Shown piece after piece: positions 16,229 to 40,972 of a DNA stretch of 64,000 nucleotides; the first letter of the stretch is position 1; every line of letters starts with the position of its first letter. Under the pieces are notes generated by a model, which saw only the letters and a program-made list of their open reading frames with translations, was not told where the DNA came from and did not search any database. Source of the DNA: Gallionella capsiferriformans ES-2 (GTDB lineage Bacteria > Pseudomonadota > Gammaproteobacteria > Burkholderiales > Gallionellaceae); the NCBI RefSeq assembly GCF_000145255.1, contig NC_014394.1, forward strand, positions 2,108,001-2,172,000, written 5' to 3'. A program made the translations under genes and the position numbers.

Positions 16229-19075
16229 TCAATCGGGTAAAAAATACTTTACAACCTCACTAGCCGGGATTGGGCGACTGAACAAATAGCCCTGATATTC
16301 CTCGCAATTGAGCATACGAATGAAATCCAACTGCTCCTGAGTTTCAACCCCTTCTGCTGTCACCTTCAGATTCAGAGCGTGTGCCAGTACTGCAGTCGCA
16401 CTGACTATGCTGGCATCATTTGGATCGGTGACAATGTCACGCACAAAGGACTGGTCAATTTTAAGACTATCCAGCGGGAGATTTTTCAGCCGGCTCAAAG
16501 AAGAATAACCCGTACCAAAATCATCCAACGCCAACCTAACACCGTCATCGCGCAATTGTTCGAGTATCTGAAGACCTGATTCACCGGTACTCATCAACAT
16601 ACTTTCGGTGATTTCCAGTACCAAGTAGTGCGCATCGAGCCCCGCCTCACGCAAAATCGTCACAACCCGGGCAGCAAAATTATCCTGCTTGAGCTGACGC
16701 GCGGACAGGTTAACCGCGATCGGCACAATGTCATAGCCCTGCGCCTGCCACAATCGCGCCTGCAAACAACTCTGGCGCAACACCCAGTCACCGATTTCAT
16801 TGATTAACCCCGTCTCCTCGGCGATAGGAATAAACACGGCTGGCGAAATAAACCCTAATTCGGGATGCTGCCAACGCAACAAGGCCTCCATACCGGTCAT
16901 TTTTCCGCTCAGCACGCTGACCTTGGGCTGGTAATACACTGACAGTTGTTGCTGAACAATGGCCACGCGCAGAAAGGTTTCAAGCTTCAACCGTTCGAGC
17001 GCCTTGCGATTCATATCCGGAGAGTAAAACTTGAAATTATTACGGCCATCATCTTTAGCCTGATACATTGCAAGATCCGCATTGCGTAACAACTCGACCG
17101 ACGTCTCGCCGTCATCCGGATAAATACAAATGCCGATACTGGGCGTAATCGACAATTGATACTCACCCAACGTGAACTTTTCGGTCAGCGACTCGATCAT
17201 CTTCTCGGCGACAAAGATCACTTCCTCCGACGAATCAAGCTCACTCAGGAGCGCGACAAACTCATCCCCCCCTAGTCTGGCGATCGTATCACTGCGCCGC
17301 AGACAAGTTTTTAGCCTTGCGGCAACCAGTTTAAGTAGCGCATCACCGATATCATGCCCTAACGAATCATTGATATTTTTGAAGTAATCCAGATCGATAA
17401 ACAGCACAGCAACCTTGAAATTATTACGCTGTGCTGACGAAAAAGCCTGTTCGATGCGATCGCTTAGCAAATAACGATTAGGCAAGCCCGTCAAGACATC
17501 GTAATTTGCCAGATAGTTGATGCGCTCCTCTTCTTTCTTACGCTCGGTAATATCGAGGAAAACAGCCACATAATGACTGATCTGCGATGTCTCGTCACGC
17601 AGCGCGCTAATCGTCACCCACTCAGGGAAAATTTCACCATTTTTGCGTTTATTCCAGATTTCACCGCGCCATAAATCGTTTGCACGGAGCGCATGCCAAA
17701 ACGCCTCATAAAACTCCGGACCATGCCTCCCTGAGGAGAGCAGCTTCGGACGCTGCCCTAACACTTCATCCGCCCCGTAGCCGGTAATCTGGGTAAATGC
17801 CTGATTTACCATGACAATATTTTGTTCGGCATCGGTAATCATGATCGCTTCAGTGTTGCTTTCAAACACCTTGGCGGACAGTCTCAAGCCCTGTTCCGCT
17901 TCCTTGCGCTGTTTGATTTCATGAGTCAGATTGACCACCATGTCGTGAATTGCCGTCGACAGATGGGCGACCTCACCCTCGCCCAAGCGGGCGGGCAATT
18001 CATATTCAAGATCCCCCCCAGCCACCTTGTCGGCAGCTTGACTGATCAGTGAAATCGGCCGCGCAATACGGCCGGCCATCAACCAGCCCAACCAGGCGAA
18101 CAGTAGCCCCAAGGCAGCACCGACAAGCCAGATATGCTGCTGCAACTGACGTGCCGGCGCGAATGCCGTGTTGACATCCTGCCGCACCAGACTAGCCCAC
18201 CCCAAGCCCTGATACTCCCGATAACCTGATGACTTTGAAAAACCAACCAGATAAGTTTTTCCATCATTCCATTTCACCAGTTGAGAACCCCCACTCTGGT
18301 TTGTACTGATGGCCTGCATTGCAGCGGGAGACAGATCAGCGAGTTTACTCTGCGGTTTGGCGGGACCTGACAGCACCGTTCCATCGCTGCTAATCAGAAA
18401 AATGTCCTTGCCCGGCGTCTTCTTGCTGTCGAGCACTTCCTCGGCCCAGCGCCAGAAAATATGCCCGCACAACACTCCCTGCAATACGCCTTGCCTATCC
18501 AAAACGGGGGCGGCCACATCGACCAGATAGAACATTTCGCCACTGGGATTGGGCAACAGTTTAGAGAGCAGCAGCGCATCATGCACATCGCCAATGTAAG
18601 TTTTATCGCGCCCCTTGCTGCACCAGGGACGTTTACTCAAATCCTTGCCTTCCAGATAGCGCCCGGTACCCACCAGCCCCACCCCGTCAGGATCGCAAAT
18701 ACCTATCCACGCATAGGCGTTAAAGGTTGCCTGAAGCCGGGTCAGAATTTCCCGTTTGTGCTCAATCGGTGCCAAGGGGTCGCGAATTTCATTGAGAATC
18801 GCCGCATTCTGAATTTCGCGGCTTCGCTCGAACATGCCGCGATCGAGCACATCCAGCGCATTTTTGGCACGCAGCTCAAAGGCATTGCCTTCGCTTTCTT
18901 CAATCTGCCTTTTGCTGACATCCGCAGCATAAAAACCGATCGCAGCTGACAGCAACAGCACCATGACCGCCGACGCCAGACTAATTTGCGCTCGCAGGCT
19001 GTAGCCGGGATGAAGTTTCTTTAAGAATTTGTTCATACTCGCATTAATCCAACCAAAAAAATTTATAGAGGGCAA
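16229..19075 (-). CDS. Membrane Cache-HAMP-PAS-GGDEF-EAL cyclic-di-GMP protein
   Basis: This 948-residue protein makes and/or degrades cyclic-di-GMP. Order: TM helix (~30-52), a periplasmic sensor of about 265 residues with the look of a double Cache domain (Y-A-W-I-G-I-C-D-P-D-G-V-G-L-V-G-T-G-R-Y-L-E-G-K), TM helix (~318-338), HAMP, PAS (~405-520, ending V-A-V-F-L-D-I-T-E-R-K), GGDEF with an intact R-L-G-G-D-E-F, and EAL with G-M-E-A-L-L-R-W, D-D-F-G-T-G-Y-S-S-L and E-G-V-E-T. Both output domains keep their catalytic motifs, so either activity is possible. It lies 13 bases beyond dnaB on the same strand. Confidence 0.92.
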   Translation of the reverse strand: MPSINFFGWINASMNKFLKKLHPGYSLRAQISLASAVMVLLLSAAIGFYAADVSKRQIEESEGNAFELRAKNALDVLDRGMFERSREIQNAAILNEIRDPLAPIEHKREILTRLQATFNAYAWIGICDPDGVGLVGTGRYLEGKDLSKRPWCSKGRDKTYIGDVHDALLLSKLLPNPSGEMFYLVDVAAPVLDRQGVLQGVLCGHIFWRWAEEVLDSKKTPGKDIFLISSDGTVLSGPAKPQSKLADLSPAAMQAISTNQSGGSQLVKWNDGKTYLVGFSKSSGYREYQGLGWASLVRQDVNTAFAPARQLQQHIWLVGAALGLLFAWLGWLMAGRIARPISLISQAADKVAGGDLEYELPARLGEGEVAHLSTAIHDMVVNLTHEIKQRKEAEQGLRLSAKVFESNTEAIMITDAEQNIVMVNQAFTQITGYGADEVLGQRPKLLSSGRHGPEFYEAFWHALRANDLWRGEIWNKRKNGEIFPEWVTISALRDETSQISHYVAVFLDITERKKEEERINYLANYDVLTGLPNRYLLSDRIEQAFSSAQRNNFKVAVLFIDLDYFKNINDSLGHDIGDALLKLVAARLKTCLRRSDTIARLGGDEFVALLSELDSSEEVIFVAEKMIESLTEKFTLGEYQLSITPSIGICIYPDDGETSVELLRNADLAMYQAKDDGRNNFKFYSPDMNRKALERLKLETFLRVAIVQQQLSVYYQPKVSVLSGKMTGMEALLRWQHPELGFISPAVFIPIAEETGLINEIGDWVLRQSCLQARLWQAQGYDIVPIAVNLSARQLKQDNFAARVVTILREAGLDAHYLVLEITESMLMSTGESGLQILEQLRDDGVRLALDDFGTGYSSLSRLKNLPLDSLKIDQSFVRDIVTDPNDASIVSATAVLAHALNLKVTAEGVETQEQLDFIRMLNCEEYQGYLFSRPIPASEVVKYFLPD

Positions 19076-24901: not shown

Positions 24902-25993
24902 CTATCGTCCCGACACCATGGCGTGAACTGCGCTGATTTTTCCGGCGATCTGTTGCAGCGGGAGCTCTTCACAGACCGCCCCCAGCTTCATCGCCTCCTT
25001 GGGCATGCCATACACCACACAGGAATCTTCATTTTGCCCCAGAGTATACGCACCGGCATCGCGCATCTCCTTCAATCCTCTGGCACCATCGTCCCCCATC
25101 CCCGTCATAATGATACCCAGCGCGTTTTTGCCGGCAAATTTGGCTACCGAACGAAACAAGACATCGACCGACGGACGATGCCGGTTGACCAGCGGCCCCT
25201 CAACGATCTCAACGTGATATTGCGCCCCGCTGCGCTTGAGCAGCATGTGCTTCCCTCCCGGCGCAATCAAGGCGCGCCCCGGAATCACGCGGTCATTATT
25301 TTTAGCCTCCTTCACCTCGATCTGACACAGACTGTTCAAACGCTGGGCGAAGGCTTCGGTAAACATTTCCGGCATATGCTGCACAATCACGATACCGGCG
25401 CACACGCGCGGCAGCGCGGTCAACACCGCCTCCAACGCCTGAGTACCGCCGGTTGACGTGCCGATGGCCACGATCTGCTCGGAGGTCATCCCTAAACGTG
25501 CAGCACCGGGCGGGGGCAAAATCGCATCGGCATTAAGCTTTTGACTGGGCACGGGCGGCCTTTGCTGTGTATTGGTCAAGCGACGCATATTCGCACGCGC
25601 AGCAGCCTTAACTGCCCCGACCAGATCATTGGACGCATCTTCCTGCAAGTAGCGTTTCACCCCCATCTTGGGCTTGGTGATGATGCTGGTCGCGCCCGCC
25701 GCCAGTGCCTGCATGGTCGCCTGCGCCCCTTTTTCGGTCAGCGTAGAACAAATGACCACCGGGGTCGGCCGCTCGTTCATAATCTTGTTCAGAAAAGTCA
25801 GGCCGTCCATGCGCGGCATTTCGATGTCGAGCACAATGACATCCGGCCACTGCAGCTTCATTTTTTCCATCGCAAAAATCGGATCCATCGCCGTCGCATA
25901 CACTGTGATTCCCGGATCAGACTCGAGCACCTGTTTGACAACCTCCCGGACCACAGCGGAATCATCAACAACCAACACTTTGATTTTACTCAT
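24902..25993 (-). CDS. cheB: CheB chemotaxis protein-glutamate methylesterase
   Basis: A 363-residue response regulator that removes methyl groups from receptors and deamidates glutamines. The receiver domain has V-V-D-D-S-A-V-V, the phospho-site D-I-E-M-P-R-M-D-G, and S-T-L-T-E-K-G. After a ~45-residue linker the catalytic domain shows I-G-T-S-T-G-G-T-Q (nucleophilic Ser), [10 protein letters not shown] and G-M-G-D-D-G-A-R-G. The ATG overlaps the stop of cheD by four bases. Operon cheR-cheD-cheB. Confidence 0.97.
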
Positions 25994-26490
25994 TTTTTTC
26001 CTGAATTTCTGTGATCAACATGAACCAGACCCACTTCACCGCTCCACACATCGAACATCACCTTGCGGTGACCAAAGCTGCCCAGATGATCATAATCAAG
26101 CGTAAAACCATATTGACTCAACAAGCTGTGTGCACACTCGATATTCTGAAAACCGATGTCGGTGGGACTGGCCGCCCGCCCGCCAAACATATTGCCGCCG
26201 CCGTAAATATGCACCTGATAACTTGCAGGTTTAGTGCGGCGCTGCGTGATTTCCTGCATGAACAGCGCCATGGCTTCCTCACCGTATTTGCCGTCGAGCG
26301 GCAAATTACCCCGCGGCTTATTGCGACCCGGCAACATGAAATGACACATGCCCCCATGCAACAGAATCGGATGCCACAGCACGATAGCGACACAAGAACC
26401 AAGCAAGGTCGTGATGCGCAAGCGCCCTTCTCCGAAGCAAAAATCGCCCGGTTTAAGGTAAACCTCACGTTCAGGCGTAACCACATTCAT
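25990..26490 (-). CDS. cheD: CheD receptor glutamine deamidase (copy 1)
   Basis: A 166-residue CheD, which deamidates receptor glutamines and, in other bacteria, works with CheC. The catalytic cysteine and histidine are visible in [12 protein letters not shown] and [10 protein letters not shown], and the family loop I-Y-G-G-G-N-M-F follows. It lies two bases from cheR and overlaps cheB. A second CheD is encoded at 28277. No CheC gene is in the window. Confidence 0.95.
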
Positions 26491-28276: not shown

Positions 28277-28855
28277 ATGATCCATCAGACAGGCAAGGAT
28301 TTTGAGCGTATCGCCCGCAATATTAACCCCGGCGGCTGGGCAATCGAGGCTGAACGTCCTATCTCGACCCTGCTGGGTTCCTGCGTTGCCGTCTGCCTGT
28401 TTGATCCCGTCCTGAAAATGGGCGGCATGAACCATTTTCTGCTGCCAACCACCAGTACCGGCAACACCGACATCGACGTGATTCTCAATGGAGACTACTC
28501 GATGGAAGTACTGGTCAACGGACTGCTTAGCAAGGGCGCAAAGAAGCCGCGCCTGCTGGCGAAAGCCTTCGGTGGCGGCACCATCATCAGCTCGATACGC
28601 ATGGCGATCGGCGAACGCAATGCAGCATTTGCCAATGAATGGTTGCAGCGCGAAGGCATCAAGCTGATTGCCTCTGACTTTAGCGGCCCCTGGTCGCGAA
28701 AAGTGGTGTTTGTTCCGCAGAATGGCGATGCCTACTGCCGGAGGATTCCCACCACACAGGCCAGCGCCATCGATGTCGCACGCGCTGAACAGGAATACGA
28801 ACGCATGCTGACCGAGAAAAAGAAAACAACCGTGAAAAAAATCGAGCTGTTTTAG
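28277..28855 (+). CDS. cheD: CheD receptor glutamine deamidase (copy 2, with C-terminal tail)
   Basis: A 192-residue CheD with the catalytic set [14 protein letters not shown] and [10 protein letters not shown], and K-A-F-G-G-G-T-I-I. It is about 26 residues longer than the first copy and ends in a lysine-rich tail [11 protein letters not shown]. That last I-E-L-F is shared with other chemotaxis proteins in the window, so this copy may be tethered or recruited through it. It is divergent from the HDOD-cheR-cheD-cheB unit and precedes the haem-binding receptor by 35 bases, suggesting a dedicated partnership. Confidence 0.93.
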
Positions 28856-30932: not shown

Positions 30933-33900
30933 ATGACGCTTTGGCGCATGAACACTGAGTTCAAACCGCTGCTGCTAAGACAACTGCACGAGCTTGGGCT
31001 CGATGCAGAACATCTCCCCGATATCGACAGCTGGCGCTCCCTGCTGTCTATCATCGAACAAACCTATCATGAAGCCCGCTGTGTGACGGGACGATCACTC
31101 GCCGTACCATCGACTGAAATGCAATACCCGCATCCGCGGGGTACCGATGAAGCGCGACTGCGCACACTGTTCAACACGATCAAAGATCTGGTCTGGCTCA
31201 AAGCCCCCGACGGTGTCTACCTTGCCTGCAATCCCGTCGTCGAACGCATGCTCGGCACGGCTGAAGCGGCAATCGTTGGCCGAACCGATTACGACTTTAT
31301 CAGCCGCGAACAGGCCGATTCATTTCGAGAACATGATCGCGCTGCCATGAATACCGGTACGGTATGTATCAATGAAGGATGGCTGACCTTTAAAGATACG
31401 GGCTATTGCGGCCTGTTCGAAACCTCTAAAACACCGGTATACGACGATACAGGGCAACTGATCGGTGTATTTGGTATCGCGCGCGACATCACAGAACGCA
31501 AACGGGCTGAAGCTGCCTTAAAAAACAGCGAGCAACAGGCGCGCAATCTGATTGATAAGCTGCAGGTCGGCGTCTTACTGCAATCCGCAAGGGCCGAGAT
31601 TTTACTTTGCAATCAGATCGCGCTCGATCTGCTGGGACTCTCCGAAGCACAGCTATTGGGTAAATCCTCTTTTGATCCGGACTGGAACGTTATCCACGAA
31701 GACGGCTCCCCCTTCCCGGGCAGCGAGCATCCGGTACCTGTGTCCATTGCCACTAAAAGTCTGGTTCACGATGTCGTAATGGGGGTCTATCGTCCATCAA
31801 AACGCGATCGCGTCTGGCTGCTGGTCAGTGCCGCACCGCAACTGAACCCGAATAATGAAGTTGAACAGGTGGTATGCACCTTCGTCGACATCACCGAACG
31901 CAAGAAAATGGAAGAGCGGCTAGAGCTGACCCAGTTTGCCAGCGACTATGCGCCCGACTGCATACTCTGGGTGAATGAGCAGGCACGCATTTGCTACGCC
32001 AATGAAGCTGCCTTACATTGTCACGGCTTTAGCAAAGAAGAATTACTGTCGATGACGATCCACGATCTGGATCCCGACTTCCCCCCCGACGTGTGGCTAG
32101 CGCACTGGCATGAATTGCAGCACAAGGGCGGCATCACGATCGAAACGCGCCACCGACGGCGCGACGGATCTATTTTCCCGATCGAAGTCTCGGCGAATTT
32201 CGTCAAATTTGGCGATAAAGAATACAACATTGCCTATCACCGCGACATCACAGAACGCAAAAAATCCGAGGCTGCACTGCGCTACAGCGAACAGCGATTA
32301 CGCGACGTCAGCGAAGCATCCGGGGAGTATCTGTGGGAAATCGATATCAATCTGGGCTATACCTATGTCTCGAACCGGTCGATCGAAGTCAAAGGATACA
32401 CACCGGAGCAATTGCTGGGCCACGCACCTGCTGAGTTTATGCCACCTGAGGATATCGATATGGCAGCCCGCATCGTCAACCTCGCCATCAGTAAAAACCA
32501 ACCCTTCAAATTACAACATCGCGACATCACGCCGAGCGGTGCGATCCTGTGGGAAGAAGTAAGTGGCGTGCCGTTTTATGATGATGCCGGCCACCTGCTT
32601 GGACTGCGCGGCACAGGGCGGAACATTACCGGACGCAAGTTAAAAGAAGAGCAACTCAGGGTTGCCGCAGCGGCTTTTGAAACGCATGAAGCCATTATGA
32701 TCACCGACGCCCACGGCACGATCATTAAAGTCAATCAGGCATTTCAGCGCATCACAGGCTACAGTCAGGAAGAAGTGCTGGGAGAAAATCCACGTATCCT
32801 GAGTGCCGGGCGCAATGAAAAATCATTTTATAGCGCGATGTGGCAACAACTGACGACGCTTGGCAGGTGGCGGGGCGAAATATGGGACAAACGCAAGAGC
32901 GGCCAGATTTACCCGAAATGGATGACGATTACCGCCGTGCGTGACGAAAACGGAAAAACGACTGAATATGTCGCTATTTTCAGCGACATCACACAGCGCA
33001 AACTCGCCGAGGAGGAAATTCGCAATCTGGCATTCTACGATGCGCTGACCCGCCTGCCCAACCGGCGCCTGTTGCTCGATCGTTTACACGCTGCACTGTC
33101 GGTCTCAGCACGCAGCCGCCGCTTTGGTGCGGTGCTGTTTCTCGACATGGACAGATTCAAGACCCTCAACGATACGATGGGACATGATTACGGCGATCTC
33201 CTGCTGATCGAAGTCGCCGAGCGCATCAAACTTTGCGTGCGTGAAATCGACACCGTTGCTCGCTTAGGGGGGGACGAATTTGTCATACTGGTCGAAGAGA
33301 TTGATACCCGTGCCGAAGAAACCTCGAAACATATTGCCGCAATTGCCGAAAAAATACGCAGTGCACTCTCTGTTCCTTATCGGCTCAAAGAAAAACATCA
33401 TCACAGCTCGCCCAGCATCGGCGTGTGTTTATATCGCGGCATCGAGGAATCAACGGACGATCTGCTCAAACACGCCGATATGGCCATGTATCAGGCCAAA
33501 GACTCCGGTCGCAATGCAGTACGTTTTTTCGATCCGCTGATGCAGCAGGCCGTCGAAGCACGCGTCACGCTGGAAAACGACTTGCGCCATGCCCTGCCGA
33601 ATGATCAGTTGCAACTTTACTACCAAATTCAAGTCGACAATGACCGTCGTGCGATCGGCGCAGAAGCACTGGTACGCTGGATACATCCAATACGCGGTAT
33701 GGTATCGCCCGCACACTTCATTCCCATTGCAGAGGAAACCTCGCTGATCCTCGAAGTCGGCGCATGGGTACTAAAAACGGCCTGTCTGCAACTGGCGGTA
33801 TGGGCTGACAGACCGATGACCTGCAACCTGATACTGGCGGTCAATGTCAGCGTACAGCAATTTAAACAGGTAGGATTCGTCGAACACATCGCTGAGCTCA

Positions 33901-34337
33901 TACGAGCGTACTGCATTGTGCCGCAACGTTTAAAACTCGAACTCACTGAGAGCGTGGTGCTGAACGATGTGAGTGACATTGTGCAGAAGATGTGCGCCTT
34001 AAAATCGCTCGGCGTCAGACTGTCGATGGATGATTTCGGCACCGGCTATTCATCGCTTTCCTATCTGAAAAATTTACCGCTGGATCAGCTCAAGATCGAC
34101 CAGAGTTTTGTGCGCAATATTGCAACCGATGAAAACGATGCGGTGATGGTCAAAACCATTATCGCGATGGCGCAGAATTTCCGGCTGAATGTGATTGCTG
34201 AAGGCGTTGAAACAGAGGCGCAACTGGCATTCTTAAAACAGAACGGCTGCATGTGCTATCAGGGATATTACTTCGGCAAACCCGCACCGATAGAACAATT
34301 CCAAAGCCAGCTTGAAGCGCTGTCAAAAACCGTCTGA
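30933..34337 (+). CDS. Multi-PAS GGDEF-EAL cyclic-di-GMP protein
   Basis: A 1134-residue soluble protein without membrane helices. After ~70 N-terminal residues come five PAS domains (about 72-190, 200-325, 335-450, 455-575, 580-700), each closing with an I-T-E-R-K-type motif or a variant. The GGDEF domain is intact (R-L-G-G-D-E-F), as is EAL (I-G-A-E-A-L-V-R-W, D-D-F-G-T-G-Y-S-S-L, E-G-V-E-T). It is a cytoplasmic integrator of several signals into cyclic-di-GMP. An ATG at 30951 (M-N-T-E-F) is an alternative start. It sits inside the chemotaxis locus next to a CheA with a possible cyclic-di-GMP-binding module. Confidence 0.93.
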   Translation: MTLWRMNTEFKPLLLRQLHELGLDAEHLPDIDSWRSLLSIIEQTYHEARCVTGRSLAVPSTEMQYPHPRGTDEARLRTLFNTIKDLVWLKAPDGVYLACNPVVERMLGTAEAAIVGRTDYDFISREQADSFREHDRAAMNTGTVCINEGWLTFKDTGYCGLFETSKTPVYDDTGQLIGVFGIARDITERKRAEAALKNSEQQARNLIDKLQVGVLLQSARAEILLCNQIALDLLGLSEAQLLGKSSFDPDWNVIHEDGSPFPGSEHPVPVSIATKSLVHDVVMGVYRPSKRDRVWLLVSAAPQLNPNNEVEQVVCTFVDITERKKMEERLELTQFASDYAPDCILWVNEQARICYANEAALHCHGFSKEELLSMTIHDLDPDFPPDVWLAHWHELQHKGGITIETRHRRRDGSIFPIEVSANFVKFGDKEYNIAYHRDITERKKSEAALRYSEQRLRDVSEASGEYLWEIDINLGYTYVSNRSIEVKGYTPEQLLGHAPAEFMPPEDIDMAARIVNLAISKNQPFKLQHRDITPSGAILWEEVSGVPFYDDAGHLLGLRGTGRNITGRKLKEEQLRVAAAAFETHEAIMITDAHGTIIKVNQAFQRITGYSQEEVLGENPRILSAGRNEKSFYSAMWQQLTTLGRWRGEIWDKRKSGQIYPKWMTITAVRDENGKTTEYVAIFSDITQRKLAEEEIRNLAFYDALTRLPNRRLLLDRLHAALSVSARSRRFGAVLFLDMDRFKTLNDTMGHDYGDLLLIEVAERIKLCVREIDTVARLGGDEFVILVEEIDTRAEETSKHIAAIAEKIRSALSVPYRLKEKHHHSSPSIGVCLYRGIEESTDDLLKHADMAMYQAKDSGRNAVRFFDPLMQQAVEARVTLENDLRHALPNDQLQLYYQIQVDNDRRAIGAEALVRWIHPIRGMVSPAHFIPIAEETSLILEVGAWVLKTACLQLAVWADRPMTCNLILAVNVSVQQFKQVGFVEHIAELIRAYCIVPQRLKLELTESVVLNDVSDIVQKMCALKSLGVRLSMDDFGTGYSSLSYLKNLPLDQLKIDQSFVRNIATDENDAVMVKTIIAMAQNFRLNVIAEGVETEAQLAFLKQNGCMCYQGYYFGKPAPIEQFQSQLEALSKTV

Positions 34338-34498: not shown

Positions 34499-35053
34499 TC
34501 AGGCGGACAACTCCGGCACACCGCCTGCAGCCGCCTGCCCCAGCATCGACAGTTCGTCCACCGACAACACCTTATCGGCATTGAGGATAATGACAAACTT
34601 CCCGGCAACTTTTCCCATGCCCTTAATGAAATCTACCCGGATTTTGGCGCCAAAAGCTGGAGCCGGTTCAATTTCGGCCGTCGGAATTTCCAGTACTTCA
34701 GAAACGCTGTCCACCATCACCCCGATGTCCTGATGCGTTTCATCGCTCCCCTCGACTTCAATGATCACAATACAGGTGCGTCGCGACACCTCGGTTTTAC
34801 TGCGACCGAAACGCACCGCCAGATCCACCACCGGCACGACGCTGCCGCGCAGGTTGATCACCCCGCGTATAAACCCCGGCATCATCGGCACTTCAGTCAA
34901 ACTGCCATATTCGATGATTTCCTTGATGTTGAGGATAGCGATGGCAAACATTTCGCCGCTCAACAAAAAGGTCAGATACTGATGATCATCGACGGCTGCG
35001 CTCACCGCCGTATTCACAGCAACTGGCAGATTTTTAGCTGTACTCATGTTCAT
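34499..35053 (-). CDS. cheW: CheW chemotaxis coupling protein
   Basis: A 184-residue CheW that joins receptors to CheA. Hallmarks are Q-Y-L-T-F-L-L-S-G-E-M-F-A-I, V-P-M-M-P-G-F-I-R-G-V-I-N-L-R-G-S-V-V-P-V-V-D-L, and V-D-S-V-S-E-V-L-E-I-P. The first ~25 residues are a short extra tail. It starts five bases after the receptor gene stop on the same strand. Confidence 0.96.
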   Translation of the reverse strand: MNMSTAKNLPVAVNTAVSAAVDDHQYLTFLLSGEMFAIAILNIKEIIEYGSLTEVPMMPGFIRGVINLRGSVVPVVDLAVRFGRSKTEVSRRTCIVIIEVEGSDETHQDIGVMVDSVSEVLEIPTAEIEPAPAFGAKIRVDFIKGMGKVAGKFVIILNADKVLSVDELSMLGQAAAGGVPELSA

Positions 35054-35058
35054 TCACC

Positions 35059-36687
35059 TCAGAAACGTTCAAAGTCTTGCTCGCTGGGCGCACCACTGAC
35101 ATATTGATTCGCTTTTCTGGCAGGTGCACGTGCGGACTGTGCCGGTACGCGTGAAACATGGCGTGCAGGTGTTAACGTTGTTGCTGAGGAATCGCTCAGT
35201 TTGAAGAAGGTCATCACCGATTGCAGCTGTTCAGCCTGACTGCTCATTTCTTCAGCTGTTGCCGCCAGCTCTTCCGAGGCGGACGCATTTTGCTGCGTGG
35301 TCTGGTTCAGTTGCCCCATCGCGCTGTTGATTTGGCCCACGCCGCTTGCCTGCTCACTCGAGGCTGACGCAATTTCCTGCACCAGATCGGACGTCTTGTT
35401 GATCGATGGCACCATTGCCTCGAGCAGCTTGCCGGCTTTTTCCGCCATGCTCACGCTGCTGCCAGCCAGCTCGCCAATTTCCTGAGCGGCCACCTGCGAG
35501 CGTTCAGCCAGCTTACGCACTTCAGCGGCCACCACCGCGAAGCCCTTGCCGTGTTCACCGGCACGCGCCGCTTCAATCGCCGCATTCAAAGCCAGCAAAT
35601 TGGTCTGGTAGGCGATGTCGTCCACGATGCCGATCTTGCCCGCGATCTGTTTCATTGCAGTCACGGTATTTTCAACCGCCTGACCGCCTTCGGTCGCTTC
35701 CCTTGCGGCCTTACCTGCCATGCCATCGGTCACTTTGGCATTTTCAGTATTTTGGTCAATCGAGGCGGTCATCTGCTCGATCGACGCGGTCGTCTCTTCA
35801 ACGCTGGCCGCCTGTTCAGACGATGACTGCGACAAAGATTGCGCGGTCGCGCTGATCTCTTCCGAGGCACTGGCTAAGGCATCGGCATTACCGCGTACGG
35901 TGGTGATAATTTCAGTCAGCTTGGTGACCATATTCTGCATGGCACTGAGCAACTGTCCGGTTTCATCGGTTGACTCCACCACAATCTTGACGTTCAGGTT
36001 ACCTTCGGACAAGTTATTGGCCACGTTCACGGCTTCATCCAGCGGACGAGTGATGCTACGGGTAACCCAAAAGGCAAAACCCACGGCGATCAGGATGGCG
36101 GACAGCGACAAAACTAAAATCAATCGCTGTGCCCCTTCCACCGCCACATTGGCTTCCGCGCCGGTTTTCTTCATCAGCTCAGATTGAAAGTTGATCAACT
36201 CCGAAACAGACTTAATGTAATCGCCCTGCGTCTTGCGCATTTTGGTGACCATCAACTCAACAGCCTCATCGCGCTTTCCGGCCGTTTGCAGCTCGATAAA
36301 TTTATTCTGGTCTTCCACATAGAGCTTGCGCGCTTCCAGTGTTGCGGCGAGCATTTTTTTACCATCTTCTGAACGGATGCTCTTTTCAAGCTTATCAAAA
36401 CCCGCCAAAATATTCTTGCGCGCTTCCATCACGCGATCCAGCTCCTTCTGCACGTCGTCCCCTTTGACCAGCAGCGAGTTGCGCAGCGCGCGCGCAATCA
36501 CATTGATCTGATCGATAACTTCGTTCGCCACCACCGTCTTGGGAAATTTGTCGTTGATCACATCACCGATATCAGTACTGATCTGCATCAGCCGGTTATA
36601 AGAGAAAATCGAAATAATGGACAGCAGCAACACCATCAAACCAAAACCAATGCCAAGACGAACACCAATACGTAAATTTTTAAACAT
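35059..36687 (-). CDS. Methyl-accepting chemotaxis protein (4HB sensor)
   Basis: A 542-residue classical receptor: TM1 ~10-30, a periplasmic four-helix-bundle-like domain of ~155 residues, TM2 ~190-210, HAMP, and a methylation/signalling hairpin with [24 protein letters not shown]. The tail after ~500 is a flexible Ala/Arg/Pro linker ending Q-D-F-E-R-F, which fits the aromatic-x-x-aromatic pentapeptide that tethers CheR or CheB. Ligand unknown. It lies between cheA and cheW. Confidence 0.95.
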
Positions 36688-36722: not shown

Positions 36723-38879
36723 CTATGCTGCCTGAATCCTGTTTTGCTGCACGGTGGCCAAAGCCACCAAAGACTGCACATCGAGTATCAGTGCGACCTC
36801 GCCTGACCCCAGGATAGTAGACCCTCCTATGCCTTTGATATGTTTAAAAATAGTACCCAGCGGTTTAATCACGGTCTGAAATTCCCCCATCAGTTCATCG
36901 ACAACCAGACCGATTTTCTGTCCAGCATACTGCACCACCACAATATTTTCGCGCTTACCACCGCCGTCGCTGATTTCAAACTGTTCACGCAACCGCACGA
37001 ACGGCAGCACTTCACCGCGCAAATTGATATATTGACGCGTCAGCGTATCCGCCCGGTCTTTTTCCGACAGCTCGATGCATTCGACCACGGTTCCCAGCGG
37101 AATCACATAGGAGGCTCGCCCCACGCCGACCAGGAATCCGTCGATGATCGCTAACGTCAGCGGCAATCGAATCCGGAAAGTGGATCCTTCCCCCTCACGG
37201 CTCTCCACCTCAATCGTACCTCTGAGCGCGGTGATATTGCGTTTGACGACGTCCAGCCCCACACCGCGACCGGAGATATTGGTGATCTTATCGGCCGTGG
37301 AAAAACCGGGTTCAAAAATCAGACCGAAAATTTCACTGTCAGTGAGCACCTGATTGGCCGTGATCAACTCACGCTCACGCGCCTTGTTGAGAATTTTATC
37401 CCGGTTCATCCCGCCGCCATCGTCGATGATCTCGATCGCGATGCCGCCAGACTCATGATAAGCGTTAAGCTTGAGCGTGCCGCGAGCCGGCTTGCCGCGT
37501 GCGAGACGAACATCGGGGGATTCAACACCGTGATCGAGTGCATTGCGCACCAGATGCATCAGCGGATCGCCCAGTTTTTCAACAACCGACTTATCAAGTT
37601 CAGCATCACTGCCGCTGATCACAAGCTCAATGTCTTTACCGAGTTCGCGACTGGTGTCGCGCACCACACGCTGAAAACGGGTGAAAGTCTCGCCGATTTG
37701 CACCATGCGCAACTGCAAGGCGCTATCGCGGATCTGCTCGACCAGCATTGAGATGACCGACGTGGATTCCACCAGCGCCGTTTCACCGCTTTTGCGCGCC
37801 TGCATGTTTGCGCCCGCGCTGGCAATCACCATTTCGCCGACCAGATCGATCAACTGGTCAAGTTTAGCGGCCTGCACCCGTATCAATTGCGATTCGATTG
37901 TTTTCTTATCCGCAACTTTCCCCTGTTTGACGGCTGCGGCTTCTACCACTTCCGCGGTCACCACCCCCTGATTGACCAGCAAGTCGCCAATCTTGGGTTG
38001 TACTGAACGGTCATCGACGCGATCAGATTGGGTGTTTAACGCGATATCCAGTTCGTTTTGTGTCAACGCGCCACAGAGAATCAAAATTTCGCCCAGACGC
38101 ATCGTGTCTTCCGGCAGCGTTTCAATCGTACTGATAAAGTCGGCCAGCTTGCTGTGCGGCGGCCAGATATGCACGACGCAATCATCGCTGACAAATGAAA
38201 ATACGTTTTCAATCTGCGATTTCTCTGCCTCCGATTTATAGGAGATTTCAAAACCCAGGTAACAGGATTCCGCATCCATCTCTTCGGCATTCGGCATCGC
38301 ATCCGGCAGCGTGGTCAGATGAACGATCTCCCCTAACTCCATCAGGTAGCGCAAAAATGACGCGGGATCCATACCTTTGCGCAGCACATCGGGACCGAAA
38401 CGCAACGAGATATGCCAGTTGTCGGTCTCCATTTGACCACCGCCGCTGACTTGCACATCAGCCTCAGTAAGCGCCACATCGCCCTTGCCTGCGGGTTTAC
38501 TCAGATAGTGCTGCAATTTTTCGCGCAGCGCTGCACTGGTCAGATTGACATCTTCCCCCGGTTGGCATTCGTTTTCAATGCAGTTCAGGAGTGCACCTAA
38601 CTGATCCGCACAAATCAGCAGCACCTCGACCAAGGTCTGATCTGCAACGATATTGCCGGCACGCATTTCATCGAGCACATTTTCCAGCACATGGGTAAAC
38701 TCAACCACGAACTGACACTCGATGACGCCCGCTCCTCCCTTAATCGTATGAGCCGCGCGAAAAATCGCATTAATAATCTCAGGATCACTGCCACGCTCTT
38801 CCATCTGCAACAGATTTTCTTCCATCATCTGCAACAGTTCACGGCCTTCGACAACAAATGCCTGCTGAATCTCGTCCAT
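36723..38879 (-). CDS. cheA: CheA histidine kinase with an inserted MshEN-like module
   Basis: A 718-residue chemotaxis kinase. The Hpt domain carries His44 in R-A-A-H-T-I-K-G-G-A-G; the dimerisation helix pair follows ~330; the ATPase has L-V-R-N-A-L-D-H-G, D-D-G-G-G-M and G-R-G-V-G-L-D-V-V; and a CheW-like domain ends the protein. Residues 261-320 contain two copies of a pattern L-G-x-x-L-x-x-x-G-x-x-T (R-L-G-E-I-L-I-L-C-G-A-L-T ... K-I-G-D-L-L-V-N-Q-G-V-V-T), the outline of MshEN / T2SSE-N cyclic-di-GMP-binding repeats. This is unusual for CheA. GGDEF-EAL genes lie nearby. Confidence 0.94.
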   Translation of the reverse strand: MDEIQQAFVVEGRELLQMMEENLLQMEERGSDPEIINAIFRAAHTIKGGAGVIECQFVVEFTHVLENVLDEMRAGNIVADQTLVEVLLICADQLGALLNCIENECQPGEDVNLTSAALREKLQHYLSKPAGKGDVALTEADVQVSGGGQMETDNWHISLRFGPDVLRKGMDPASFLRYLMELGEIVHLTTLPDAMPNAEEMDAESCYLGFEISYKSEAEKSQIENVFSFVSDDCVVHIWPPHSKLADFISTIETLPEDTMRLGEILILCGALTQNELDIALNTQSDRVDDRSVQPKIGDLLVNQGVVTAEVVEAAAVKQGKVADKKTIESQLIRVQAAKLDQLIDLVGEMVIASAGANMQARKSGETALVESTSVISMLVEQIRDSALQLRMVQIGETFTRFQRVVRDTSRELGKDIELVISGSDAELDKSVVEKLGDPLMHLVRNALDHGVESPDVRLARGKPARGTLKLNAYHESGGIAIEIIDDGGGMNRDKILNKARERELITANQVLTDSEIFGLIFEPGFSTADKITNISGRGVGLDVVKRNITALRGTIEVESREGEGSTFRIRLPLTLAIIDGFLVGVGRASYVIPLGTVVECIELSEKDRADTLTRQYINLRGEVLPFVRLREQFEISDGGGKRENIVVVQYAGQKIGLVVDELMGEFQTVIKPLGTIFKHIKGIGGSTILGSGEVALILDVQSLVALATVQQNRIQAA

Positions 38880-38939: not shown

Positions 38940-39263
38940 CTACCTACGATTCCCTGCTGCGTGCTCATGTGCAGTAATCACCATAGGATCGCCAAAATAG
39001 CCCGCCATATTGTATAAATCGAGCACTTCTGTCACCGCCTTGCTGTGGGCGGTCAAATGAACCGCTTTACCCGCCTTGATCGCTTCACGCTTGGTCAGCA
39101 GCAAAACCTGAAAGCCAGCCGTATCCATTTCTGCCACTTGGGACAAATCCAGATCCAGCTCATCACACGTATTGAGCGCATCCAGCAGCGTCTGTTTCTG
39201 CACTGCGGCATTGTATATGGTCATATCGTCTTTAACAGCAATGGTACTATGCGCCTGTGTCAT
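38940..39263 (-). CDS. STAS-domain protein in the chemotaxis operon
   Basis: A 107-residue single STAS domain, the fold of anti-sigma-factor antagonists: M-T-I-Y-N-A-A-V-Q-K-Q-T-L-L-D-A-L near the start, then L-D-L-D-L-S-Q-V-A-E-M-D-T-A-G-F-Q-V-L-L-L. In the D-x-A/S-G motif the residue after Asp is Thr143-equivalent (D-T-A-G), a possible phosphorylation site. Such proteins recur between cheA and receptor genes in beta- and gammaproteobacteria, where their role is not clear. Lies 60 bases upstream of cheA. Confidence 0.88.
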   Translation of the reverse strand: MTQAHSTIAVKDDMTIYNAAVQKQTLLDALNTCDELDLDLSQVAEMDTAGFQVLLLTKREAIKAGKAVHLTAHSKAVTEVLDLYNMAGYFGDPMVITAHEHAAGNRR

Positions 39264-39327: not shown

Positions 39328-40425
39328 TTAAAACAATTCAATTTTTTGCTGTGAAGAACTCGGAGGATTGTGTGCTGCGCCGACTACTGCGTCGTGAATA
39401 GTGCGCTGATGATCCATGACATAGCCCTGATAGATCTGTTCGAAGTGATCCTTAATCGAGGCTGAGCTTGAAAAATCCTTGTTACGCATCATGTCGACCA
39501 TCTGCACTACATGCGCATCGAGCCGTGACAAAGCCCCCTGCACCTGTTCAATCTGCTGGCGCGTCACGTCCTGAAACTGAATACTAGCCAACACCTCCAT
39601 GAACATGGAAGACAAGGTCGTGCTGGTTTCTTTGAGACGGGAGATCATTTCCTCATCACGCTGCATCAGGCGATGATAATTACCGCTCATGCTGTCCAGA
39701 TGGGATGAAAAACTCTCCAGAACCTCTTTTTCTTGACCCGTGCTCTCGTGCTCAAGTTTGTTTTTGAACTGTTCTTCGATGGTTTGCGCAACGCGGCCTA
39801 TCCCCTGCTGAATTTCTGATACCGCAACATCCGTTTCACCTGACAACTTGCGTACCTCGTCAGCCACTACGGCAAAACCGCGCCCGACCTCACCGGCACG
39901 CGCCGCTTCAATCGCCGCATTAAGCGCCAGCAGATTGGTTTGCGAAGAAATCCCCTTAATCATATCGATCAGCGATGTCATCGAGCGAGCCTGCTGCACC
40001 ACGACAGAAATGCTTTGACGGTCGGCTTCAAATTCAATGAAGCGATTTTGTATATACTGATTGAGATTTTCGATCAATTGTACGTTAGAGCTGACGTTCC
40101 TCTCGCCCGACTGTATCATCAACTCCGCATCTTGAGCACCGCTGGAAACTGTGGACACCAGATCCTCGATCACCCCGTCGATGAGTTGCAGTCGTTCGAC
40201 AATCCCGAACGCCGAACGCTCCGTCTCCACCGTAATCGCGTGCAACTGGTCATTGAGCAGTTGGGTCAGCGTAGGCAGATGACTCAGATCGCTGGCCACG
40301 TTATTGATAATCGCCTCAAAACTGGCAACTTTTTTCTGCAAATCAAGCTGAGTCGAGCGCATCCCCAGCAGCCGGTCTTGAAAAATCGCCAGCGAAACCA
40401 TGTTACTGACAAGAAAGCTGCCCAA
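39328..40425 (-). CDS. Receptor-like chemotaxis protein with a CheZ-like D-x-x-x-Q motif (5' end interrupted)
   Basis: The open frame gives 365 residues from a TTG at 40425. It has a membrane helix at the N-terminus, a signalling hairpin ([22 protein letters not shown]), and then [15 protein letters not shown], similar to the CheZ active-site stretch F-Q-D-L-T-G-Q. It ends Q-Q-K-I-E-L-F. The same frame continues upstream to an ATG at 40599 except for one amber codon (40447-40449); see that entry. Whether the TTG really starts translation is doubtful. Confidence 0.82.
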
Positions 40426-40446
40426 AACGATGATCAGCGTTCCGGC

Positions 40447-40599
40447 CTAGTCCGCCACTCTATCGGTCATACCAGTTGCCGCATGCAGCCAATCATGAAA
40501 GGGCGTATGCAACAAATAGACCGCCGCCGCACAGGCCCCCGCCGTCAGCAGTGCAACCACAACCTGTCGCAACTTAATTTGGCGCGAGTTTAATAACAT
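40447..40599 (-). pseudogene. Original 5' end of the receptor-like gene, closed by an in-frame amber codon
   Basis: From the ATG at 40599, seven bases after the cheY stop, the frame reads 50 codons with a first membrane helix (Q-V-V-V-A-L-L-T-A-G-A-C-A-A-A-V-Y-L-L) and a short loop to D-R-V-A-D, then TAG, then continues in the same frame into [16 protein letters not shown], the second helix. A two-helix receptor split by a single nonsense codon is the simplest reading. A sequencing error is possible. Confidence 0.72.
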
Positions 40600-40606
40600 A
40601 TCGGGA

Positions 40607-40972
40607 TTATTTAACGACGAGTTTGATAGTGCCTATTAATTGCTCCGCATTCACCGGCTTAACCAACCAGCCGGATGCCCCCGCAGCTTTGGCTTCGTCG
40701 CGCTTCGATTGTTGCGACTCTGTAGTCAGGAACAGAATTGGCATAAAACGGTGATTAGGCAATTTCCGCACTTCACGGATAAACTCGATACCATTCATGC
40801 CGGGCATATTCAAATCGGTGATCAGCAGGTCCGGCTTGAGTCCGCCTTTAAGCTTAGCGAGCCCTTCTTCTGCGCTAGCCGCCTTTTCGGTCGCATAGCC
40901 AGCTTTGGACAGAATTGCGCTCATACTCAACAAAATAGTGACGGAGTCGTCGACGAGAAAAATGGTTTTCAT
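40607..40972 (-). CDS. cheY: CheY-like response regulator
   Basis: A 121-residue single receiver domain: I-F-L-V-D-D-S-V-T-I, phospho-acceptor in L-L-I-T-D-L-N-M-P-G-M-N-G, F-L-T-T-E-S-Q and the conserved lysine in W-L-V-K-P. It is the first gene of the minus-strand receptor-STAS-cheA-receptor-cheW run and is probably the CheY that carries the kinase signal to the motor. No output domain. Confidence 0.94.
   Translation of the reverse strand: MKTIFLVDDSVTILLSMSAILSKAGYATEKAASAEEGLAKLKGGLKPDLLITDLNMPGMNGIEFIREVRKLPNHRFMPILFLTTESQQSKRDEAKAAGASGWLVKPVNAEQLIGTIKLVVK

Follow-up and report, generated by a model that had tools for sequence, protein, structure and literature searches.

The cheA locus and its neighbourhood

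The window analysed here, a stretch of 64,000 nucleotides from the Gallionella capsiferriformans ES-2 genome (3,162,471 bases in a single contig), encodes on its minus strand a cluster of chemotaxis genes that includes a cheA gene with an additional segment between its P2 and P3 domains. The genes of the cluster, and the genes of the window with a possible connection to cyclic di-GMP (c-di-GMP), are the following:

40607..40972, minus strand: CheY-like single receiver, with which the conserved cluster opens (Pfam PF00072, E 1.3e-25)
39328..40425, minus strand: short MCP-signalling protein with a CheZ-like C-terminus (Pfam, relatives' loci)
38940..39263, minus strand: STAS protein, directly upstream of cheA (Pfam PF13466, E 1e-13)
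36723..38879, minus strand: cheA, 718 aa, P1-P2-MshEN-P3-P4-P5 (open reading frame, Pfam and NCBIfam matches)
35059..36687, minus strand: chemoreceptor (MCP) of the 4HB type, the next gene after cheA (Pfam, relatives' loci)
34499..35053, minus strand: CheW, with 5 bases between its gene and that of the MCP (Pfam, E 4.8e-38)
30933..34337, plus strand: multi-PAS GGDEF-EAL protein, convergent with the che cluster (GGDEF and EAL signatures)
16229-19075, minus strand: second GGDEF-EAL protein of the window (GGDEF and EAL signatures)
58136, plus strand: YajQ-type protein (N-terminal signature)

Besides these CheY, MCP, STAS and CheW proteins, CheD, CheR and CheB are also encoded near cheA, and flagellin genes are present in the genome. 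The gene order CheY, MCP/CheZ-like protein, STAS, CheA, MCP is kept across the Gallionellaceae, the Rhodocyclales and their relatives. Among 80 loci encoding relatives of this CheA, taken from 84,980 species genomes, genes for the STAS protein (78 of 80), the MCP/CheZ-like protein (77 of 80) and CheY (74 of 80) were detected, with several loci ending at contig ends, CheW and genes beyond it often lying outside the fetched flank, and the MCP matches including other receptors in part. In the species genome collection, the relatives closest to this genome belong to the Gallionellales, with the whole CheA being 95% identical in locus L009, which also retains the GGDEF-EAL neighbourhood of the cluster. 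A previous sequence-only reading of this DNA had called attention to two GGDEF-EAL proteins and a YajQ protein in the window, and all three were recovered, the last being assigned to the YajQ type by its N-terminal signature only. Both GGDEF-EAL proteins present intact GGDEF and EAL signatures, and the one convergent with the che cluster is likely to take part in c-di-GMP turnover.

The C-terminus of the protein encoded at 39328-40425 matches the Pfam CheZ model below its cut-off (E 3e-5) and contains the sequence QFQDVTRQQ. DxxxQ is the CheZ pattern, and 65 of the 80 relatives' loci show it after the MCP hairpin motif. This protein is possibly a receptor-phosphatase fusion. Its frame (39328-40700, minus strand) runs upstream of the TTG start and past one in-frame stop, through a segment resembling a membrane helix (VVVALLTAGACAAAVYLLHTPFHDWL), and the open frame is longer in its orthologues, in many cases 427-579 aa; in the ES-2 genome, a stop codon may interrupt the N-terminus of the protein. 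The adjacent STAS protein might be a partner of CheA. Elsewhere in the window, a CheD gene (28277-28855, plus strand; Pfam) and a CheD-like open reading frame (25990-26490, minus strand) lie within a few genes of each other on different strands, flanking genes for an HDOD protein and CheR, and the CheD query also matches the locus of the CheD-like frame in relatives.

The domain layout of the CheA protein can be summarized as follows:

38595..38870, minus strand: P1/Hpt, residues 4-95, with phospho-acceptor motif AAHTIKG (Pfam PF01627, E 2.3e-15)
38163..38417, minus strand: P2 (CheY-binding), about residues 155-239 (Pfam PF07194, E 0.0069, and model)
38028..38099, minus strand: MshEN motif 1, residues 261-284 (sequence, NF053729, alignment)
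37995..38027, minus strand: spacer of 11 residues between the MshEN motifs (alignment)
37923..37994, minus strand: MshEN motif 2, residues 296-319 (sequence, NF053729, alignment)
37713..37892, minus strand: P3 dimerisation domain, residues 330-389 (Pfam PF02895, E 2.8e-9)
37155..37568, minus strand: P4 ATP-binding kinase domain, residues 438-575 (Pfam PF02518, HATPase_c, E 1.8e-19)
36762..37139, minus strand: P5 CheW-like domain, residues 581-706 (Pfam PF01584, E 4e-26)

The Hpt, H-kinase_dim, HATPase_c and CheW matches are all above their Pfam cut-offs, and H44 in the P1 motif is invariant in the alignment columns of the orthologues. The P2 match (residues 155-232) is weak and falls below the PF07194 cut-off, and the region forms an alpha/beta segment in a model of the full-length protein. 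The protein thus shares the P1-P5 order of the canonical Escherichia coli CheA and of the CheA proteins surveyed in 2023, with intact catalytic motifs, but differs from canonical CheA in an extra domain of ligand-binding type in its P2-P3 linker. Three more CheA-like genes are located near 1.04-1.08 Mb of the genome, and profile comparison with the MshEN domain returned no match, or matches at chance level, for all of them.

The repeat between P2 and P3

The sequence-only reading had noted a tandem repeat similar to that of MshEN domains on the P2 side of the dimerisation domain. The strings on which it was based are present at residues 261-277 (RLGEILILCGALTQNEL) and 296-310 (KIGDLLVNQGVVTAE) of CheA, in the interval between the P2 and P3 matches where it had placed them. 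At full length, motif 1 spans residues 261-284 (RLGEILILCGALTQNELDIALNTQ) and motif 2 residues 296-319 (KIGDLLVNQGVVTAEVVEAAAVKQ), separated by 11 residues versus 5 in MshE. In motif 1, residues R261, L262, G263, L277, L281 and Q284 correspond to R9, L10, G11, L25, L29 and Q32 of MshE, and in motif 2 residues K296, I297, G298, V312, A316 and Q319 correspond to R38, L39, G40, L54, L58 and Q61. The strict MshEN consensus comprises two tandem instances of RLGxx(L/V/I)(L/V/I)xxG(L/V/I)(L/V/I)xxxxLxxxLxxQ; motif 1 fits it except for an Ala in place of L/V/I at position 11, whereas motif 2 departs from it and fits the relaxed version given by Wang et al. (K, I, G, G, V, A, Q).

Profile searches supported this likeness. 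The NCBIfam model NF053729 ("c-di-GMP motif, MshE-related") matched the CheA protein in two stretches with an E-value of 1.4e-7. Its score of 31.2 bits in hmmscan, or 38.4 bits with both motifs of the frame summed, compares with a curated cut-off of 38, which is exceeded by the orthologues in loci L011 (41.2 bits) and L069 (38.7 bits). Over the whole 3.16-Mb genome, NF053729 matched no proteins other than this CheA and PilB/GspE-like ATPases, with a Walker-A motif seen in the ATPase loci examined, indicating that the model does not match at random. A third MshEN-bearing protein of the genome (G000:C1:702373-702708; loci L091 and L092) is a 792-aa frame with a Walker A motif and three to four successive c-di-GMP motifs. 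In a phmmer search with the CheA sequence alone, PilF was the sole significant match (7.7e-5), and an alignment profile was needed to detect others; a profile of 73 orthologues searched against all PDB sequences returned 15 matches, the first 12 of which were to PilF, PilB and MshE (best E 1.9e-11; MshE 3.3e-4).

The same relationship was outlined by the predicted structure. An AlphaFold2 model of CheA residues 240-340, built from a 73-row alignment, has moderate confidence (mean pLDDT 77.5, and 86-88 in the motif helices) and places helices at residues 262-269, 274-287, 297-304 and from 309 onward. The top Foldseek match was the c-di-GMP-bound PilF-GSPIIB, with an E-value of only 0.63 and a probability of 0.94. 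When the best Foldseek chains were re-aligned, the top six were all MshEN or PilB-N domains, with unrelated folds appearing from Z 4.7 down. The model superimposed on PilF-GSPIIB (8pdk_B) with Z 8.2 and 1.4 Å over 57 residues, the values for c-di-GMP-bound MshE (5htl) being Z 7.9 and 2.5 Å over 60 residues; PilF is hence the closest PDB match of the CheA domain both by sequence and by structure. Such Z values would be insufficient alone for a helical bundle, but together with the sequence profile the predicted fold proves the relation to MshEN. As modelled, the segment is a four-helix MshEN_N-type fold inserted between P2 and P3.

A chance likeness of an amphipathic linker to MshEN could be invoked on the grounds that no Pfam model matches the segment, even at E 10, and that one of the profile scores (31.2) lies under its cut-off. 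This explanation is hardly credible in the face of the profile E-values, the genome-wide specificity of NF053729, the fold match and the invariant contact residues of 73 orthologues described below. The MshEN likeness originally proposed is thus upheld by the NF053729 match, the PDB matches of the orthologue profile and the predicted fold, and on these sequence and model data CheA segment 259-321 is almost certainly an MshEN homologue.

Putative ligand contacts, their conservation and their distribution

In the crystal structure of MshE, the backbones of G11 and G40 form hydrogen bonds to the guanines of c-di-GMP, and Q32 and Q61 each contribute a pair of hydrogen bonds that reach ribose and phosphate (PMC5013675). 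The equivalents of these two glycines and two glutamines are all present in CheA (G263, Q284, G298 and Q319). Two hydrophobic triangles of MshE, L25/L29/L39 and L10/L54/L58, stack on the guanines. The first is retained in CheA (L277, L281 and I297), and the second is made up of L262, V312 and A316, with A316 being smaller than the residue found in any of the binders compared. In the alignment of CheA and its relatives, the L54 position is occupied by Val or Ile and the L58 position by Val or Ala, the turn glycine of motif 2 is missing in most relatives, and position 1 of motif 2 is Lys in this CheA and mostly Pro or Gln in the relatives.

Published data on MshE and PilF provide a reference for these substitutions. 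The L58A variant of MshE has a tenfold higher KD and retains its biofilm function (PMC5013675). The rescue of binding in PilF GSPII-A established that both glutamines, the position-1 residue and the position-3 glycine matter, and that large hydrophobic residues at positions 17 and 21 are interchangeable (PMC12002112). Both GSPII-B (K167 at motif position 1) and GSPII-C (P335) of PilF bind c-di-GMP (PMC11731258). A loss of binding in most relatives through the initial Pro of motif 2 was considered and dropped, since GSPII-C has Pro at this position and binds. Like many CheA relatives, the GSPII-C motif (PLGEILVELGLARPEDVEEALQKQ) combines Pro at position 1 with Val at position 17, but at position 21 it has Leu in place of the Ala or Val of CheA, and GSPII-C contains three motifs, which leaves some doubt as to the pair that binds.

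The domain of Vibrio cholerae MshE (PDB 5HTL) and the CheA domain share tandem 24-residue motifs, a four-helix fold, the R/L/G and Q contacts of motif 1 and the G and Q contacts of motif 2. They differ in that MshEN precedes a pilus or secretion ATPase in MshE and lies inside a kinase in CheA, and in that the CheA domain has a longer and variable spacer, Val and Ala/Val in place of L54 and L58, and no MshEN_C subdomain. Lone MshEN_N binds c-di-GMP with a KD of 0.35 uM (PMC5013675), indicating that MshEN_C is dispensable.

Relatives of the MshEN-bearing CheA were found in the Gallionellaceae, Methylophilaceae, Rhodocyclales (Azoarcus, Thauera, Azospira, Dechloromonas and Accumulibacter), Sulfuricella, Thiobacillus, Nitrotoga and others. 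A strict motif regular expression misses most of these orthologues, but the alignment revealed both motifs in all of them, at the same place in 75 of 75 aligned sequences. G263, Q284, G298 and Q319 do not vary in any of the 73 orthologues, nor in the 64 dereplicated ones, among which R261 (61/64), L262 (62/64), L277 (61/64) and L281 (63/64) are near-invariant. Contact residues were more conserved than the remaining ones across the 48 motif positions (p = 0.009 for the full contact set, 0.002 for a stricter set and 0.0008 for the Gly/Gln positions alone), in permutation tests that treat positions as exchangeable and ignore the tree. For motif 2 alone, the same comparison was weak (p = 0.25, 0.056 and 0.01, respectively). 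Mean pairwise identity reached 0.68 in motif 1 and 0.60 in motif 2, against 0.11 in the spacer, which varies in length among relatives, 0.58 in P1 and 0.74 in P3. In L103, a distant member of the main clade, the Q284 position is occupied by His, a residue also found at that Gln position in the non-binding GSPII-A of PilF (PMC12002112). Overall, the sequence data support a pattern of residue conservation such as would be expected from selection for c-di-GMP binding.

These same features bear on the possibility that the MshEN fold of CheA does not bind c-di-GMP and serves instead as a structural spacer, or as a protein-docking module, tethering P1-P2 to the core. Docking could involve, for instance, a PilZ protein, as in the N-terminal domain of Xanthomonas citri PilB, and the PilB-N domain bound to PilZ was among the structural matches to the CheA domain. 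The replacement of L54 and L58 and the frequent loss of the motif 2 turn glycine would be compatible with such a role, and the GSPII-A domain of PilF is an instance of an MshEN fold that has lost binding (PMC12002112). A compact group of CheA proteins, described below, also persists without an equivalent of Q32, suggesting that the fold can outlive binding there. Nonetheless, the non-binders XpsE (PMC5013675) and GSPII-A (PMC12002112) have lost several of the contact Gly and Gln residues that are invariant in the 73 CheA orthologues, and a pure spacer would have no need for both glutamines. A non-binding role is for these reasons unlikely, and c-di-GMP binding by the CheA domain appears probable. 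Binding is expected in spite of the atypical second guanine pocket, with an affinity perhaps in the low micromolar range.

In an even sample of 299 genomes from the phylum, 16 matched a profile of the domain, the match lying in a CheA in about ten cases, and about two fifths of the genomes within the genus have the domain. Loci L104 and L106 encode CheA proteins of another family, with no detectable P2 and with two motifs before P3 (PIGEMLVSSGVATSAQVADAIKQQ and PVGEILVNQGVVDKGSVAKAVDKQ in L104). A tree built on the P3-P5 core separates both from the betaproteobacterial clade by starred branches. Because they sit in this tree among CheA proteins without the domain, the insertion of MshEN into CheA most likely occurred at least twice. 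A third group of CheA proteins (L125-L136, except L135), 37-40% identical, presents a compact MshEN-like unit before P3. In most members its motif 1 ends before the final Gln or is altered there, and abuts motif 2, in which the Gly and Gln are retained. Judging from these sequences, the compact unit looks like a degenerate relative of the receptor domain that probably does not bind, and it is possibly a fossil of that domain or a fold put to another purpose. The notion that a helical P2-P3 linker always signals the domain in a CheA was dropped, given that 20 comparison CheA proteins yielded no match or matches at chance level.

A candidate link from c-di-GMP to the kinase

CheA is named among MshEN-bearing proteins in one clause of Wang et al. 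2016, which may or may not refer to the betaproteobacterial family described here; the main text of that article contains no sequence analysis, phylogeny or test of such a CheA (PMC5013675). In its abstract, the 2023 survey of CheA proteins by Berry et al. presents CheA as lacking a sensor or input domain; its section on auxiliary domains covers P2, receiver and CheC/CheX domains only, and MshEN is not mentioned in its main text (PMC10782961). No functional study of an MshEN-bearing CheA was found among 5.39 million openly available papers. The protein hence combines a known receptor domain with a known kinase in an arrangement that has apparently been named once and is otherwise undescribed.

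In other systems, c-di-GMP is joined to steering at the methyltransferase in the MapZ-CheR system and acts on single receptors in the case of PilZ chemoreceptors such as Cbp1, whereas in the MshEN-bearing CheA the domain lies inside the kinase. The Caulobacter Cle proteins, which are CheY-like, link c-di-GMP to flagellar steering at the motor.

The hypothesis we favour, with some reservation, is that this CheA is directly regulated by c-di-GMP through the inserted MshEN_N-type domain. From the placement, homology and conservation of the domain, we infer binding, coupling and sign as follows. The ligand would occupy the cleft that the two motifs form, its affinity being sub-micromolar to low-micromolar. 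It would thereby organise the four-helix unit, whose last helix (residues 309-332) ends at the first P3 helix (from residue 337) in the full-length model, with low confidence at residues 330-333. Once ordered, the unit would change the tethering of the P1-P2 arm to the P3-P4-P5 core. Because the domain links the mobile P1-P2 arm to the dimer core, the access of P1 to P4, and hence P1 phosphorylation, would be altered, changing the output of phosphorylated CheY and CheB. The c-di-GMP level of the cell would thereby be coupled straight to the steering kinase. If c-di-GMP does bind, modulation of the kinase is likely; as to its sign, our guess is that high c-di-GMP damps the kinase, with inhibition of CheA being only moderately favoured over activation.

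Alternatively, bound c-di-GMP could set the cellular position of CheA together with its receptor array, at the pole or elsewhere, or the choice of CheY partner, rather than kinase turnover. The domain adjoins the CheY-binding P2, and the operon also contains genes for a STAS protein and for a receptor resembling CheZ. The known MshEN proteins function at pilus machines of the cell pole, which would also agree with a role in placement. This alternative is improbable, given that the last MshEN helix is modelled to end at P3, where a conformational change should reach the kinase.

More broadly, it is somewhat more likely than not that a widespread betaproteobacterial class of chemotaxis systems has a CheA that is a c-di-GMP receptor and is gated by the messenger through the inserted domain, with at least two insertions in CheA evolution and a degenerate form in a third lineage. 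CheA has been described as hearing chemoreceptors only (PMC10782961). The conserved domain is carried by culturable strains, among them relatives in Azospira, Thauera, Azoarcus and Dechloromonas. As a biofilm messenger, c-di-GMP tells cells to stop swimming and stick. If the hypothesis is true, this messenger would act straight on the steering kinase, at a point above both CheY and CheB, and would reach tumbling bias and adaptation together.
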